Assembly (NCBI GenBank): GCA_902765595.1
Contig: CACXAQ010000006.1
Location: 1 to 52,331 of the forward strand
Length of the DNA stretch: 52,331 nt
From: Oscillospiraceae bacterium
GTDB taxonomy: Bacteria > Bacillota > Clostridia > Oscillospirales > Oscillospiraceae
Direction of reading: 5' to 3'
Part shown: positions 8,401 through 17,491 of the stretch, one piece after another
How the letters are laid out: the number at the start of each line of letters is the position of its first letter
How positions within the stretch are numbered: position 1 is the stretch's first letter
Program-made: the position numbers and the translations under genes
The notes under the pieces: model-generated
The model's database searches: none
The model's input: the letters and a program-made list of their open reading frames with translations, nothing else
What the model was told of the DNA's origin: nothing

Positions 8401-8992
8401 CCCCCCAGAACTCGATGCGCACCGGCTCCGCGTCCGCGGGGGAGAAAAAGTCCAGGATGCCGCCCCGGCGGGCGAACTGGCCCGGGCCCTCCACCTGCTC
8501 GGCCCGGCTGTAGCCGCAGCGGAGCAGCGCGTCCTCCACGTCCTCGATGGCGTAGCTGCCCCCGTCTTCCAGGGCGAAGGCGGCCTTTTCCAGGGTCTCC
8601 GGCGGGAGGGTCCGCTGCATAAGGCCCGAGACGGAGGCGGTGAGTACCGGGGTGCTCCCCGTCTGCAGGGCGTAGAGCGCGGCGATACGCTTTTGCTCCG
8701 CCTGGCGGGAGGCGGCCTCCGCCGGGTAAAAGGTGAAGTCCCGCATCCCCAGGGTGGCGACCTCGGCGCCCAGCATGGCCCGCAGGTCGTTTGCCATGTT
8801 TTCTGCCGCGGTGTCGTCCGGGCAGAGGACCACCAGGGGAAGCCCGGTTTCCAGGCGCAGCGCCGCGGCCAAATTGGCCCGGTGCACCGCCGAAAGGCCG
8901 GAAACGAGCGCAGGAAGCCCTCCGCTCTCCAACAGGGAGGGGAGGGCGGCGGCTTCCTTGTTTGCAAAGATTTGCTTGATGAGCAGTTCCAT
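5477..8992 (-). CDS. mfd: transcription-repair coupling factor Mfd
   Basis: This DNA translocase of 1171 residues removes stalled RNA polymerase and recruits UvrA. Visible in order are the UvrB-like N-terminal module, the RNA-polymerase-interaction domain (DLSVGDFVVHENHGIGRF), and the RecG-like helicase with Walker A GDVGFGKTEVALRA, the DEEQ box (LLVVDEEQRFGV) and motif III LSATPIPRTLNMAM. The C-terminal TRCF domain follows. Length matches the family. ATG 8992 is chosen by homology; it has no Shine-Dalgarno and sits 9 bases after a consensus -10, implying a leaderless or near-leaderless mRNA. The prsA-like gene follows, a common clostridial arrangement. Confidence 0.97.
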   Translation of the reverse strand: MELLIKQIFANKEAAALPSLLESGGLPALVSGLSAVHRANLAAALRLETGLPLVVLCPDDTAAENMANDLRAMLGAEVATLGMRDFTFYPAEAASRQAEQKRIAALYALQTGSTPVLTASVSGLMQRTLPPETLEKAAFALEDGGSYAIEDVEDALLRCGYSRAEQVEGPGQFARRGGILDFFSPADAEPVRIEFWGDEIDSMGHFDVASQRRSEPIRRCVILPAAETLPGLTVGGVEALAGEIERYAERFARKRSSENAATLAATLRADAERLRGGVVLSDADRYLPLVYPEASGMDYLPAEALLVMDQPARCAERARDYQKQLQEDLRELQKRGQVALGAEAFALGWDALVRRLQDYPLYMTDAFTVGRTPLPPKTLTSIPAKQLPTYAGSAQAAADDVKAYRKQDYRVVVLAGDERRAKVLQEFFKDHDIPALIDPELKQLPRNGECRIGIGALSAGLEYPNIKLAVLTDAQLLRSRNKKQAAKKKLPSTRQRIESYADLSVGDFVVHENHGIGRFAGIVKMQVDGFEKDYVKIAYAGTDCLYVPATQLDLVTKYTGGGEEKPVRLSKMGGAEWAKTRSRAKSAAKDMAKKLIALYAERQRLPGYAFSPDSEWQTEFEENFGYTETDDQLRCTAEIKADMESSVPMDRLLCGDVGFGKTEVALRAVMKCVLDGKQAAILVPTTVLAQQHYQTALQRFFGFPVNIAVLSRFKTGGQSAKVLQDLASGRCDLVIGTHRLLSKDVKFKDLGLLVVDEEQRFGVTHKEHIKELSRGVDVLTLSATPIPRTLNMAMSGIRDMSTIEEPPEDRLPVQTFVMEHDWNVLADAIRRELQRGGQVYYLHNRIEDIDRTAVRLRQLLEEDVTVAVAHGQMDKTMLANVMESVASGQVQVLVCTTIIETGIDIPNVNTLIIEDADKLGLAQLHQIRGRVGRSTRRASAYLTFRRDKVLTEIAEKRLSAIRDFAAFGSGFKIAMRDLEIRGAGNLLGAEQSGHMIDVGYDMYMKLLSEAVLEARGIEVPKRAECSADLAVAANIPERYVPSSEQRMDLYRRIAAIRSEEEADDLTDELIDRFGDPPPGVNALIHVALLRGEAGKAGITDIAQKQGCLRFTVKDFDMEKVSALYARPEYKGRLRVEAGSKPCLSLKIKAKGRVIEEARRFAADWAGGAENS

Positions 8993-13996: not shown

Positions 13997-15742
13997 CTAT
14001 CCCTCCAGATTCTGGGCCTTGCACAGCGCCGCGTAGGCGCCGTCCTTCGCCATCAGCTCCTGATGGCTGCCCTGTTCGATGATATGTTCTCCCTCCACCA
14101 CGGCGATACAGTCGGCATGCTTGACGGTGGAGAGCCGGTGGGCGATGATGATGGTGGTTCGGCCCACGCTCAGCTCGTCCAGGGACTTCTGGATCCGCTG
14201 CTCGGTGACCGTGTCCAGGGCCGAGGTGGCCTCGTCCAGGATCAGCACCTTGGGGTTTTTCAGAAAGACCCGGGCGATGGAAAGCCGCTGCTTCTGCCCG
14301 CCGGAGAGCATCACGCCCCGCTCGCCGATGTAGCTGTCGTAGCCGTCGGGCATGGCCAGAATCTCCTGGTGGATCTCCGCGCGCTTGGCCGCCTCCACGA
14401 TCTCCTCGTCGGTGGCGTCGGGCCGGCCGTAGCGGATGTTCTCCCGGATGGTGCCGGCGAACATGAACACGTCCTGCTGCAGGATGCCGATGTTCCGCCG
14501 GAGGCTGTGCTGGGTGACGGTGCGGATGTCGGTTCCGTCCACGGTGATGCTGCCGCCGCACACGTCGTAAAAGCGGGGGATCAGCTGGCACATGGTGGTC
14601 TTGCCGCCGCCGGAGGGGCCCACCACCGCCAGACACTCGCCCGGCTCGATGTGCAGGTCGATATGGCTCAGCACCGGCACGCCGTTATCATAGTGGAAGC
14701 TCACGTCGTTCAGGTCGATCTGGCCGCGGATCTCGCCCAGTTCCTTTGCGTCCGGCGCGTCCCGGATTTCCGGCTCGGTGCGCATGATCTCCAGGAAGCG
14801 GGCCAGGCCCGCGCTGCCCTGCATGTACTGCTCGGCAAACATCACAAGCTTCCGCAGGGGCGTCACAAAGGTGGAGACGTAGAGGGTGAAGGTGACCAGG
14901 TCCACATAGTCCATCTTCCCGCGCATGATGAGAAAGCCGCCCACGGTGATGACCAGCACCTGCATGACGCCGGTGGTGAACTCCATCCCGCTCATGTACA
15001 GGCCCATGCTCTTGTAATACTCCACCTTGGCGCCTTTGAAGACGTCATTGGCCGAGTCGAATTTTTCGATCTCCCGGTCCTCGTTGGCAAAGGCCTTGGC
15101 GGTGCGCACGCCGGAGATGCTGCTCTCGATGGCGGCGGTGATCTCGGCGGTCTTGCGCTTGACTTCGATATTGGCCCGCTTCATGCGGAAGCGCTGGCTC
15201 AGGGTGAACCACAATGTCAGCGGCAGCACGATGGCCAGCACCAGCGCCAGCTGCCAGCGGAGTGCGAACATGATCACCAGGGCGCCCACGATGGTGAGCG
15301 AGCAGATGACGATGTTCTCCGGCCCGTGGTGGGCCAGCTCCGTCACCTCGAAGAGGTCGCTGACCACCCGGCTCAGCAGCACGCCCGTGCGGTTCTTGTC
15401 AAAGAAGCTGCAGGACAGGTCCTGCATGTGGGTGAAGAGGTCCCGGCGCATATCCGCCTCGGTGAGTACGCCCATCTTGTGCCCCAGCACGGTGATAATA
15501 TAGTAGAGCACCGACTTGAGCAGATAGGCCCCGATCATGATGCCCATGACCACAAAGAAGGCGTTAAAGAGCTTCTGGGGCAGCAGGCGGTTCATGGACA
15601 TGCGGGACACATAGGGAAACACCAGGTCGATGACCGCTACCGTCAGGGCGCAGACCATGTCGATGGTGAAGAGCTTTTTGTGCCCGGCAATGTAGCGGAT
15701 AAAGATCTTCAGAGGCTTGTCGTTGTAGTTGATCGGTCTCAT
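13997..15742 (-). CDS. ABC exporter, fused permease and ATPase
   Basis: This 581-residue type IV ABC half-transporter has six transmembrane helices in the first ~310 residues and a C-terminal nucleotide-binding domain. It carries Walker [11 protein letters not shown]-loop LQQDVF, signature [10 protein letters not shown], Walker [13 protein letters not shown] and the H-loop [10 protein letters not shown]. Such exporters act as homo- or heterodimers; no second half is encoded here, so a homodimer is more likely. The start overlaps the rnhA stop. Substrate is unknown, and lipids, peptides or drugs are the usual possibilities. Confidence 0.92.
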
Positions 15743-16182
15743 ACGAACTGCTCTCTTTCCGCGACGGCAAGTCGGTCGCAGCGATTGTTGAATTCGTTCT
15801 CCGCGTGGCCCTTAACCCAGTGATAGTGCATCTCATGCTGAGAGCACAGGTCCAGCAGCATGGTCCAGAGGTCCGGGTTCAGGGCCGGTTTCTTGTCGGA
15901 TTTGACCCAGCCCTTTTTTCGCCATCCCCAGGCCCAGCCCTTTTCCAGGGCGTCGATCACGTACTTGGAGTCGGAATAGAGCTCCACCACACAGCTCTCC
16001 CGGAGGGCAAGCAGCCCCTGGATCACGGCGGTGAGCTCCATGCGGTTGTTGGTGGTCTGCGCTTCGCCGCCGGAGAGCTCCCGCTCGTGGCCGTTGTAGC
16101 GCAGGATGGCCCCCCAACCCCCGGGTCCGGGATTGCCGCTGCAGGCGCCGTCGGTATAAAGTTCTACGGTTTTCTTTGTCAT
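15739..16182 (-). CDS. rnhA: ribonuclease HI
   Basis: This 147-residue RNase H degrades the RNA strand of RNA-DNA hybrids. Catalytic residues are visible: Asp in [11 protein letters not shown], Glu in NNRMELTA, Asp in YSDSKYV and Asp in NRCDRLA. The basic handle region [11 protein letters not shown] is present, so it is an HI-type enzyme. ATG 16182 follows GGGAGC; the in-frame sequence further upstream is not RNase H-like. It leads the ABC-GNAT-HAD operon. A degenerate second copy of its 5' end lies at about 16308-16337. Confidence 0.95.
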
Positions 16183-16305
16183 GCAGTATTTGCTCCCTGT
16201 GTGGTTTACACCTGTCTTCTCCCGGCGGCGCCTGCGTTCCATGTCCGGCGGTTGCCGCGCAAGCGGCGAGCCGGACGGTTTTAAATCCTCGAGCCTGCGA
16301 AGCAG

Positions 16306-16337
16306 GCTTCGCCGTCGGGATATAGTTCTACGGTTTT
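16306..16337 (-). pseudogene. relict of an rnhA 5' end
   Basis: Minus-strand bases here match codons 3-12 of rnhA almost exactly: a 15-base identical run GAAAACCGTAGAACT, then two mismatches and an AA insertion before GCCTGC. One change would convert Thr of the YTDG motif to Pro, so the copy is dead. It lies about 125 bases upstream of the intact start and 23 bases from the DUF559 unit. Confidence 0.55.
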
Positions 16338-16340
16338 CAT

Positions 16341-16768
16341 TCAATCAGTCTTCCTTTTTGGCTCCCCTGTGCAAGGGGAGCTGTCAGCCCTAAGGCTGAC
16401 TGAGGGGTTGTTATTCTGCCGTTGTTTGACGATCATGTCAATGTAGCTGCAGACGCTTTCAAAATGATTCATTACCTCGTTATTGGGGATCCGAAGCACT
16501 TCCAGATCGTATCTGTTCAGAAAAGCACTTCTCTCTGCGTCTTTTTTCTGTCCTTTTCCAAAAAGCGCCGGGAGCCGTCAAGCTCGATAACCAGCTTGGC
16601 GGCGGCGCAATAAAAATCCGCTATGTACTTTCCCAACACCTTCTGTCGGTAAAATCGGATGGGATATTGACGGAGGAAGTCATACCAAAGGTGCCTTTCT
16701 TCCTTGGTCATTTCCCTTCTCAGTTTTCTAGCCATGGGAACAAGATCGCTGTTCTTTTTTCTTTCCAC
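16341..16768 (-). CDS. DUF559 (Vsr-like endonuclease fold) protein split by a -1 frame change
   Basis: DUF559 proteins carry a PD-(D/E)XK-type nuclease fold related to Vsr. The first frame (GTG 16768 to a stop at 16517) encodes [18 protein letters not shown] and VIELDG, including the expected acidic residues, then ends early. The family's C-terminal part ([19 protein letters not shown]) continues in the -1 frame. The switch falls exactly at A AAA AAG (16547-16541). A -1 slip there gives a 142-residue protein ending at 16341, with a tail encoded by the adjacent repeat. GGAGGGG from the other repeat is its ribosome site. The usual His after ELDGS is Arg. It may instead be a simple frameshift pseudogene. 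Confidence 0.7.
16360..16411 (+). repeat. composite-hairpin repeat, copy 1 (left boundary of DUF559 unit)
   Basis: Hairpin 1 GCTCCCCT/AGGGGAGC (16361-16368 with 16374-16381), then hairpin 2 GTCAGCC/GGCTGAC (16383-16389 with 16394-16400), then the tail TGAGGGGTTGT. In reverse orientation it encodes the C-terminal tail of the frameshifted DUF559 product. Confidence 0.85.
16541..16547 (-). other. -1 slippery heptamer AAAAAAG
   Basis: The zero-frame codons are AGA AAA AAG, giving the canonical X XXY YYZ heptamer of the type used in dnaX. Re-reading one base back resumes at GAC GCA GAG, which is exactly the frame that completes the DUF559 domain. A one-base loss from a former A7 run would look the same. 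Confidence 0.55.
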
Positions 16769-16773
16769 GGCAG

Positions 16774-16829
16774 ACAACCCCTCCGCCCCAGTGTACGTAC
16801 TGGGGCGCCTCCCCTTGCACAGGGGAGGC
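16774..16829 (-). repeat. composite-hairpin repeat, copy 2 (right boundary, inverted)
   Basis: The same modules occur in inverted order to copy 1: tail ACAACCCCTC, hairpin 2 CGCCCCAGT/ACTGGGGCG (16784-16792 with 16799-16807), hairpin 1 GCCTCCCCT/AGGGGAGGC with the same TGCAC loop as copy 1. Its inner edge supplies the GGAGGGG ribosome site of the DUF559 gene. Confidence 0.85.
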
Positions 16830-16840
16830 TTTCGCGGCGG

Positions 16841-17491
16841 TCAGGTCTCTTCGTCCCGCCGGCTCAGATACTGGTTTCGCAGCTTCCGGTATTCCTTGTC
16901 GTCGATCATGCCGGAGCGCTGCCATTCCTCCAGACGCTCCAGCCGCTGCTGCAGCGCGCGGACCCGGACGTCGGCTGCCGCCTCGTGGTCGTAGTTCATA
17001 TTGACCTCCGGCGCGGGGTATTTTGTCGGATCGGTCTCTTCCCCGCGCTTGCGGCGGAGAAGCACGTCGATCAGGAGGGCCAGCAGCCCCAGCGCACAGA
17101 GACTCATGACCAGGATACCCCGCCAGAGGAGCACTTGTTCAGAAAAACAGGTGAGCGCCAATGTGCCTGCCAGAACAAACGACAAGGCAAACACGATCGC
17201 TCCATTTCGAAACGCCCTGTCCTCGTACAGACGTTTGCTCCAGTACCAAAAGTTTAATTCTTCTTCGTAGTGCTCCTGCGGACTTTTTGGATCGAAAACC
17301 GTTGCCTTCCTGTTATCAAAATTGGGATGTACGGGCGGCTTCATTTCCGGTCCGGCGGCATACCAGCAGACAATAAACATCAGCGTCACAAACAGGGCGC
17401 TGCGGAGCCCGGGCGTGCTCCCCACTAAAAATTCAGCGATAATTCCGAAGATGCCCAACAGGACGGGAAAGGGAAACATTTTATTCTTCAT
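16841..17491 (-). CDS. uncharacterised membrane protein with SHOCT-like C-terminus
   Basis: The 216-residue protein has two hydrophobic segments near the N-terminus (~5-45), a soluble stretch (EEELNFWYWSKRLYEDRAF) and two further transmembrane helices (~105-155). It ends in a coiled tail LERLEEWQRSGMIDDKEYRKL resembling the short SHOCT motif (oligomerisation/targeting). The gene 46 bases upstream encodes a similar tail (LDDWLKIGLIDRNEYRVM), suggesting the two products interact. No enzymatic motif was seen. Confidence 0.65.
   Translation of the reverse strand: MKNKMFPFPVLLGIFGIIAEFLVGSTPGLRSALFVTLMFIVCWYAAGPEMKPPVHPNFDNRKATVFDPKSPQEHYEEELNFWYWSKRLYEDRAFRNGAIVFALSFVLAGTLALTCFSEQVLLWRGILVMSLCALGLLALLIDVLLRRKRGEETDPTKYPAPEVNMNYDHEAAADVRVRALQQRLERLEEWQRSGMIDDKEYRKLRNQYLSRRDEET

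Follow-up and report, generated by a model that had tools for sequence, protein, structure and literature searches.

The window, by which we mean the whole stretch of 52,331 nucleotides that was analysed, comes from an Oscillospiraceae genome assembly of 2.14 Mb in 61 contigs. Between rnhA, which encodes RNase H (15739-16182, minus strand; PF00075, E 8.3e-42), and a hypothetical gene it carries a 470-bp unit in which two inverted composite elements surround a frame-broken DUF559 gene. Both elements were detected by an element finder that looks for a hairpin, a second hairpin and a purine tail, and their layout is the same, namely a first hairpin (H1), a 1-nt linker, a second hairpin (H2) and, facing the gene, a purine tail of 8 nt. 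In the left element (16361-16408, plus strand) H1 is at 16361-16381 with an 8-bp stem and a 5-nt loop, the linker is a T at 16382, H2 is at 16383-16400 and the tail, TGAGGGGT, is at 16401-16408. The right element (16777-16828) is on the minus strand, with H1 at 16828-16808, the linker at 16807, H2 at 16806-16785 and the tail, GGAGGGGT, at 16784-16777. An exact 19-bp inverted core (16362-16380 and 16809-16827) lies within H1 of both, and when the elements were folded as single-stranded DNA each of them beat all 200 shuffles, with z values of -4.67 for the left and -5.63 for the right element. The exact inverted core, the fold scores and the PF04480 match (E 1.1e-18; 67.5 bits compared to a curated cut-off of 20.6) confirm the sequence-only reading, in which inverted composite-hairpin flanks around a DUF559 gene had been described. 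The same reading took the two-hairpin repeats at the two ends to be the same, which is true of the H1 core, whereas H2 is in the same place but differs in sequence. When the core was searched for as a loose pattern with up to 2 mismatches, the window gave both elements and one imperfect match at 8426-8444; this count is uninformative as to rarity, as 28 of 100 shuffles equalled it, and what sets the unit apart is its exactness, pairing and structure. An Rfam search of 16000-17200 gave no match.

The DUF559 gene, which belongs to a Vsr/PD-(D/E)XK-like nuclease family, lies in two frames at 16437-16777 on the minus strand. The open reading frame 16517-16777 (minus strand) contains the first portion of the broken gene, the domain pieces being at 16529-16738 and 16437-16553, and the open reading frame 16341-16499 (minus strand) contains the C-terminal end of the domain, its IPNNEV...VCSYID stretch matching the family alignment at its C-terminus. 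This second frame continues into the left element and takes its final residues from there, just as had been read from the sequence for the -1-frame product. Because the domain is split over two frames, the copy in the window is either a decayed gene or pseudogene or the product of an assembly error. The GGAGGGG at 16778-16784 (16784-16778 on the minus strand), which had been proposed as the ribosome site, is indeed just upstream of the start region, where the start would be a GTG or TTG, and a Shine-Dalgarno role is plausible, but it is at the same time part of the right element's 8-nt tail, which is conserved. Some DUF559 open frames elsewhere have 300-470 codons, and where these were inspected they read through neighbouring repeats and thus have repeat-encoded tails.

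When the window gene was compared to Pfam, DUF559 alone was found, and in five DUF559 members of 113-134 amino acids no extra DNA-binding domain was found in Pfam, the other matches being weak and none of HUH type. The Vsr model TIGR00632, scanned on four proteins, gave at best 22.6 bits compared to a cut-off of 97.85 (a Deinococcus member, E 9.8e-5), the Vsr model PF03852 gave 12.9, which is below its threshold of 27, and the PADLOC matches were weak. A search of the PDB with a 29-member profile matched 3hrl at E 9e-19 and, weakly, the mobile-intron protein 3r3p, which we take to be I-Bth0305I, at E 0.005; matches at E 0.04 and above were at chance level and were ignored. In the 29 DUF559 sequences E62, D64, H68 and D77 are invariant (E-x-D-G..H and D), and these are candidate catalytic residues. 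The set of E, D, H and D resembles the name of the EDxHD family, which is described in part of PMC3943268 as a family of homing endonucleases. Passages of PMC1189080 assign DUF559 to the PD-(D/E)XK type, close to Vsr, and report that a profile of YcjD detects Vsr, and according to sections of PMC12907096 the Caulobacter DUF559 protein VsrA drives the SOS response when a methyltransferase is mutated and has been proposed as a VSP or mismatch enzyme. These family relationships would suit an enzyme that nicks structured or mismatched DNA.

A search of the genus gave 99 places with DUF559 that correspond to 97 genes, of which 94 were examined. The window's genome has three DUF559 genes, each adjoining hairpin repeats of its own type. 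Two of these three and 23 of 36 C-type cores are concentrated on one 116-kb contig, for which reason this contig may be contaminating or otherwise foreign DNA. When the element finder was run on 1.05 Mb from 80 DUF559 loci of the genus it found 267 elements, whereas the reversed sequence gave 18. In the first 150 bp from the domain the density was 5.08 per kb upstream and 4.92 per kb downstream, at 150-300 bp it was about 2 per kb, and beyond 600 bp it fell to about 0.1 per kb. Within the same 150 bp the upstream elements were on the same and the opposite strand in a ratio of 46:17, and the downstream elements were on the opposite and the same strand in a ratio of 35:26. Among the 78 of 83 genes that had enough flank for counting, 55 had an element upstream, 46 downstream, 35 on both sides, 66 on at least one side and 12 on neither, and of 11 further genes 6 had an element and 5 had no detectable one. 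DUF559 genes lacking flanking repeats therefore do occur in relatives (12 of 78 and 5 of 11), but they are a minority and flanked genes are the rule.

The association extends well beyond the genus. Relatives with names that were found by protein were mostly Oscillospiraceae and other Clostridia; 79 loci from named genomes were collected by protein similarity (Gemmiger formicilis, Butyricicoccus and many MAGs) and in the 72 counted an element was on at least one side in 56, upstream in 49 and downstream in 22. Upstream within 150 bp there were 51 same-strand elements and 2 on the opposite strand, and the reversed control gave 0. Of 291 genomes of the class 79 matched DUF559, and in the 29 loci of other clostridial genera, taken as the best matches, a triplex-type element was within 300 bp of DUF559 in 28 with at most 1 mismatch, the density being 4.60 per kb near and 0.12 per kb far from the gene (reversed control 4). 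Outside Clostridia 13 loci were chosen by hand, 1-2 per genus, from 12 of 38 records plus E. coli ycjD; the plasmid loci were from Azospirillum, Sphingomonas, Sinorhizobium, Methylobacterium, Photobacterium, Lelliottia, Deinococcus (2), Synechocystis (2), Pseudanabaena and Picosynechococcus. With up to 2 mismatches 12 of these 13 loci had an element, at 5.26 per kb near and 0.56 per kb far (reversed control 2), where 17 of the 18 far matches were from a single Photobacterium array, and with up to 1 mismatch 10 of 13 had one, at 3.72 compared to 0.44 per kb (reversed control 0). The exception for the finder was Picosynechococcus, in which shorter hairpin-and-purine repeats are visible by eye. 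The pairing was thus found in Bacillota, Pseudomonadota, Cyanobacteriota and Deinococcota, so that it spans at least four bacterial phyla, and the orientation of the tail relative to the gene varies among the lineages. In three cyanobacterial plasmids the DUF559 gene adjoins DUF1156 or PglX-type methyltransferase genes, and two unverified gut phage scaffolds contain DUF559 genes with the same kind of element nearby.

The neighbour rnhA is conserved and defines a junction that could be compared between species, and 30 such loci, out of 99 genomes with a match, were compared. Elements were present at this junction in 9 of 9 species that have DUF559 there and in 2 of 21 that do not, one of the unoccupied loci having just 341 bp of sequence. 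The gene and the elements thus appear together at a recurrent spot, and this spot is clearly a hot spot, with three or more core types represented among the units at occupied junctions. One of the two unoccupied exceptions has a gene-less inward doublet. These data bear on whether DUF559 could be a host nuclease, either VSP-like or structure-processing, that clears hairpins, triplexes or T:G mismatches, with the flanking elements serving as operators or attenuators of the gene and the dispersed copies as its substrates. Such a role would agree with the proposal for VsrA, with the plausible ribosome site offered by the right element and with the weak TIGR00632 match of the Deinococcus member, far below the cut-off as it is. 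We nevertheless consider it unlikely since elements are on both sides of many genes and also in arrays, the gene is patchy, being present in 48 of the 101 genomes of the genus, and elements are absent from 19 of the 21 rnhA junctions that lack DUF559, as expected if the unit arrives whole. Members of the genus were compared at rnhA, gyrA and further loci in search of precise empty sites and none was found, nor was any target duplication readable, because the intergenic DNA is too diverged. At 16182-16345 of the window there is also a second, partial copy of the 5' end of rnhA, upstream of rnhA and behind a G/C-rich hairpin, which is marked by a direct repeat (16146-16177 and 16310-16341). A similar rnhA-end segment is present in the loci of three other species, in one of them twice in tandem, and it may be another small repeat element.

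When the two ends of the same unit were compared, an inverted left-right match with a score of at least 20 was found in 48 of 79 units (79 of the 83 genes were used) compared to 12 of 515 control open reading frames from the same loci. For mixed pairs such a match was found in 122 of 790 across genomes and in 36 of 116 when the ends came from other units of the same genome. The protein distance correlated with the H1-core distance (rho 0.386, reached in 0 of 1000 permutations) in the 73 of 83 genes that had an element, same-genome pairs and 142 pairs with homologous flanks being excluded. The core was identical in 23 of 27 pairs at a protein distance below 0.2 and in none of the 1962 pairs whose distance was at least 0.4. 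This shows that the gene and its ends move and diverge together, and both the association and the matching of subtypes are firm. The matching of subtypes alone is no proof of recognition because the unit inherits the gene and the ends together. It may be asked whether the two are simply guests of the same permissive intergenic spots, that is, independent MITE-like repeats and an unrelated accessory DUF559 gene sharing a safe haven. Both are patchy and the rnhA junction is a hot spot, as would be expected from such sharing. However, elements are about 50-fold denser near DUF559 than beyond 600 bp in the same loci, species that lack DUF559 at rnhA mostly lack the elements too, the ends match each other in units and rarely in control frames, and the pairing recurs in several phyla. 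This explanation is hard to square with the density, multi-phylum and rnhA data and we regard it as very improbable.

In 102 genomes of the genus we counted the exact cores of three subtypes, B', A and C, of which B' is the type of the window, the control with reversed letters giving 0, 1 and 0 matches, and copies away from DUF559 genes were counted in the 101 genomes that were also searched for DUF559. In genomes that have the cognate protein clade there were 26, 23, 16, 14, 1 and 1 such copies of B' (the last two including the window's genome), 60, 38, 17, 13, 8, 8, 6, 5, 3 and 1 copies of A, and 105, 34, 25, 14, 13, 13, 13 and 10 copies of C. The mean copy numbers of B', A and C were 1.2, 3.8 and 3.1, respectively, in genomes with only other DUF559 genes and 0.1, 1.7 and 0.6 in the 53 genomes without DUF559. 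The enrichment in cognate-clade genomes relative to those with other DUF559 genes had p values of 3e-5, 2e-4 and 8e-6 for the three subtypes. Genomes with other DUF559 genes in turn had more copies than those with none (p 0.003, 0.013 and 0.053), and therefore part of the enrichment is not subtype-specific. Repeats do stand apart from DUF559 in some genomes, outliers without a known cognate gene having up to 41 copies, but this is not the rule. Of the 291 genomes of the class, 42 have a strong DUF559 match (E <1e-10), and 32 of these have at least 3 copies of one core pattern. Among the remaining 249 genomes, 37 of which have weak DUF559 matches only, just 5 have as many (Fisher 1.2e-28). Strong DUF559 was found in 18 families, 16 of which have a genome with at least 3 copies, and in the families that have both states at least 3 copies were found in 21 of 30 genomes with strong DUF559 compared to 4 of 43 others. 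The dispersed cores of the genus include regular pairs of a plus-strand followed by a minus-strand core; among gene-less pairs of close neighbours far from DUF559 only 10 of 22 were inward.

A unit with a gene has the geometry of such a doublet with the gene inside, and this is what would be seen if a selfish DUF559 endonuclease gene cut gene-less doublets and were copied into them by repair, in the manner of homing, while the elements spread by some other means. The weak kinship to 3r3p, a mobile-intron protein, also fits homing, EDxHD being a family of homing endonucleases. The likeness to I-Bth0305I and other EDxHD homing endonucleases is that the domains are possibly related and that the gene is thought to drive its own spread, whereas here no intron or split target gene was seen and the gene is flanked by its own repeats. 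Homing by itself explains neither how the elements spread nor why they depend on the presence of DUF559, and we hold it to be improbable. As for the Vsr and VSP enzymes, including Caulobacter VsrA, they share a nuclease superfamily with DUF559 but the DUF559 genes here carry repeat ends.

The reading that we prefer is that of a system which works like a REPtron. It had been suggested from the sequence alone that a nuclease paired with its own hairpin ends recalls REP/RAYT, and this is supported in good part, in that matched flanks are the rule, dispersed gene-less copies and inward doublets exist, the subtype follows the protein clade and most unoccupied rnhA junctions are free of repeats. What the two have in common is a small nuclease gene that adjoins its cognate palindromic repeats, lies between matched copies of them and is accompanied by many dispersed copies, often as inverted pairs, though the inverted pairs are a weaker trait here. 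REPtrons (TnpA-REP with REP and BIME) are described in parts of PMC8266576 as reading a guide tetranucleotide together with a hairpin on single-stranded DNA, and conserved nucleotides next to the hairpin matter for this recognition, GTAG in REPtrons, to which the purine tail would be the counterpart here. The enzyme differs, being a DUF559 protein of Vsr/PD-(D/E)XK type and not an HUH/Y1 transposase, and so do the repeats, which consist of two hairpins and an 8-nt purine tail that obeys a triplex code. The GTAG (or CGTC) tag is absent, the listed elements beginning with a pyrimidine arm and carrying a 3' purine tail, and in the window no GTAG is found at H1. Since both the HUH/Y1 transposase and the GTAG tag are missing, the system is not a member of the REPtron family, and because neither its enzyme nor the logic of its repeats belongs to that family we count it as a new class; on a looser definition, which admits any nuclease with its repeats, it would be a REPtron variant. 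That it is a REPtron work-alike is likely, and we lean towards a REPtron-like system in which a Vsr-type DUF559 nuclease takes the place of the HUH transposase and of which the unit in the window is an apparently decayed autonomous member.

Two results, the tail-to-arm code and the connection to the triplex repeats of E. coli, were absent from the sequence-only reading and alter the picture most. For the code, 38 recurrent H1 types were each paired with their commonest tail, the tail being unconstrained, which gave 20 distinct arm-tail pairs; 5-6 of the 38 hairpins are plainly not elements and were retained in the test. When the tail is read parallel to the 5' arm, C in the arm mostly corresponds to G in the tail, T to A, with the second T of a run corresponding to T, and the outermost G to T. 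The mean fit to this code was 5.95 of 8 positions compared to 3.91 in shuffled pairs, and 0 of 5000 shuffles reached it. Antiparallel Watson-Crick pairing of tail and arm was far weaker (3.45 compared to 2.79, reached by 16 of 5000 shuffles) and was rejected. In the window all 8 positions of the left tail obey the code of its 5' arm GCTCCCCT and all 8 of the right tail obey that of its arm CCTCCCCT. The triplets of the antiparallel purine-motif triplex are G.GC, A.AT, T.AT and T.CG, and the pairings found between arm and tail are triplets of this motif, from which we infer that the clostridial elements may fold as triplexes. In several elements identical H2 hairpins, such as GCCCCAGTGNGCACACTGGGGC, are paired with quite different H1 types, as if modules were exchanged.

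Triplex-forming repeats have been known in E. coli since about 2000. Holder et al. 2015 (PMC4666352) describe intrastrand triplex repeats of this species, the PIT elements or TM-ECO, and the parts of that paper drawn on here report triplex formation in vitro for E. coli oligonucleotides only and negative footprinting in vivo, and give neither a protein partner nor an agreed function. The clostridial elements resemble these repeats in the order of pyrimidine arm, loop, purine arm, spacer and purine tail, in being dispersed and intergenic, and in a third strand that fits the purine triplex code on a pyrimidine-purine hairpin. They differ in having a hairpin instead of the 3-nt second loop and in having many other arm and loop types, and because the second loop is a hairpin they fail the 1-6 nt loop rule of ITxF.

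The DUF559 gene of K-12 is ycjD, and TM-ECO no. 9 (1,351,239-1,351,204) is only 167 bp away from it and fits the TM-ECO pattern, whereas by a rough estimate from 18 sites, a 954-bp target and 4.64 Mb about 0.004 sites would be expected as close. Table 1 of PMC4666352 contains five MG1655 doublets, always of mixed type, and by their coordinates the tails are inward in 4 of the 5. The gene is present in 3365 of 5426 E. coli genomes. In 60 genomes sampled at even steps through the ranked matches to a joint query, the median number of TM-like places was 19 (12-27) in 37 with ycjD and 4 (1-16) in 23 without it (p 3e-10). As ycjD tracks phylogroup, according to sections of PMC12817139, and the copy counts follow phylogroup as well, this difference stands for few independent events. 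The fabI-sapF interval was rejected as a simple empty site because the three ycjD-negative strains that were opened carry a TetR-RND efflux operon there, as excerpts of PMC12817139 also indicate, so that the difference is that of a whole operon, ycjD with TM elements in one case and the efflux operon in the other. At hrpB-mrcB the allele with a doublet spans about 117 bp, compared to about 15 in the shorter alleles, the direction of change not being polarisable, and no clean empty site or target duplication was found in this or the other comparisons. In one O111:H8 strain the TM doublet at hrpB-mrcB has lost its middle and become a single hairpin, and single-hairpin remnants of TM doublets have been described in print for other sites. 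No cytosine methyltransferase was found among the annotated genes in the 12 kb around ycjD.

These data suggest that the orphan DUF559 enzyme is the partner which an orphan class of bacterial repeats has so far lacked. Whether the DUF559 proteins, YcjD included, are the dedicated enzymes of intrastrand-triplex repeats, forming a class of repeat-spreading systems in which the nuclease reads a single-stranded hairpin-triplex, we judge to be evenly balanced. No link between DUF559 and repeats was found in the open-licence PMC literature, which was surveyed mostly at the level of its listings. A probable course of events, read by analogy with REPtrons, can be proposed. The DUF559 nuclease, with its Vsr/EDxHD-type site, would be the cognate enzyme of G/C-rich repeats made of a hairpin and a purine tail. 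On one strand, for example the lagging strand, H1 would fold and the tail would lie along the purine arm of H1 to make up the third strand, the turn between them being formed by H2 or a short loop. The nuclease would recognise this hairpin-triplex by the type of its H1 and introduce a nick next to it, after which the element, or the gene between inward-facing elements, would be copied to a new site by repair or replication, the gene-less inward doublets being the non-autonomous form. The nicking or cutting, the copying, the mobility and the preference for a strand are all predictions of this scheme.

If it is correct, a function would be given to an orphan nuclease family and to an orphan class of repeats, triple-helix DNA would be a natural recognition signal, and REPtron-like systems would also have arisen with an unrelated nuclease. 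Joining DUF559 to the triplex repeats would also offer a mechanism for the genome instability that has been reported around the triplex repeats of E. coli. As E. coli K-12 itself has a member of this unnamed nuclease family, both the enzyme and its repeats can be tested there. In a column-wise information test, uncontrolled for phylogeny, the residue before a conserved RQ covaried most with the type of H1.
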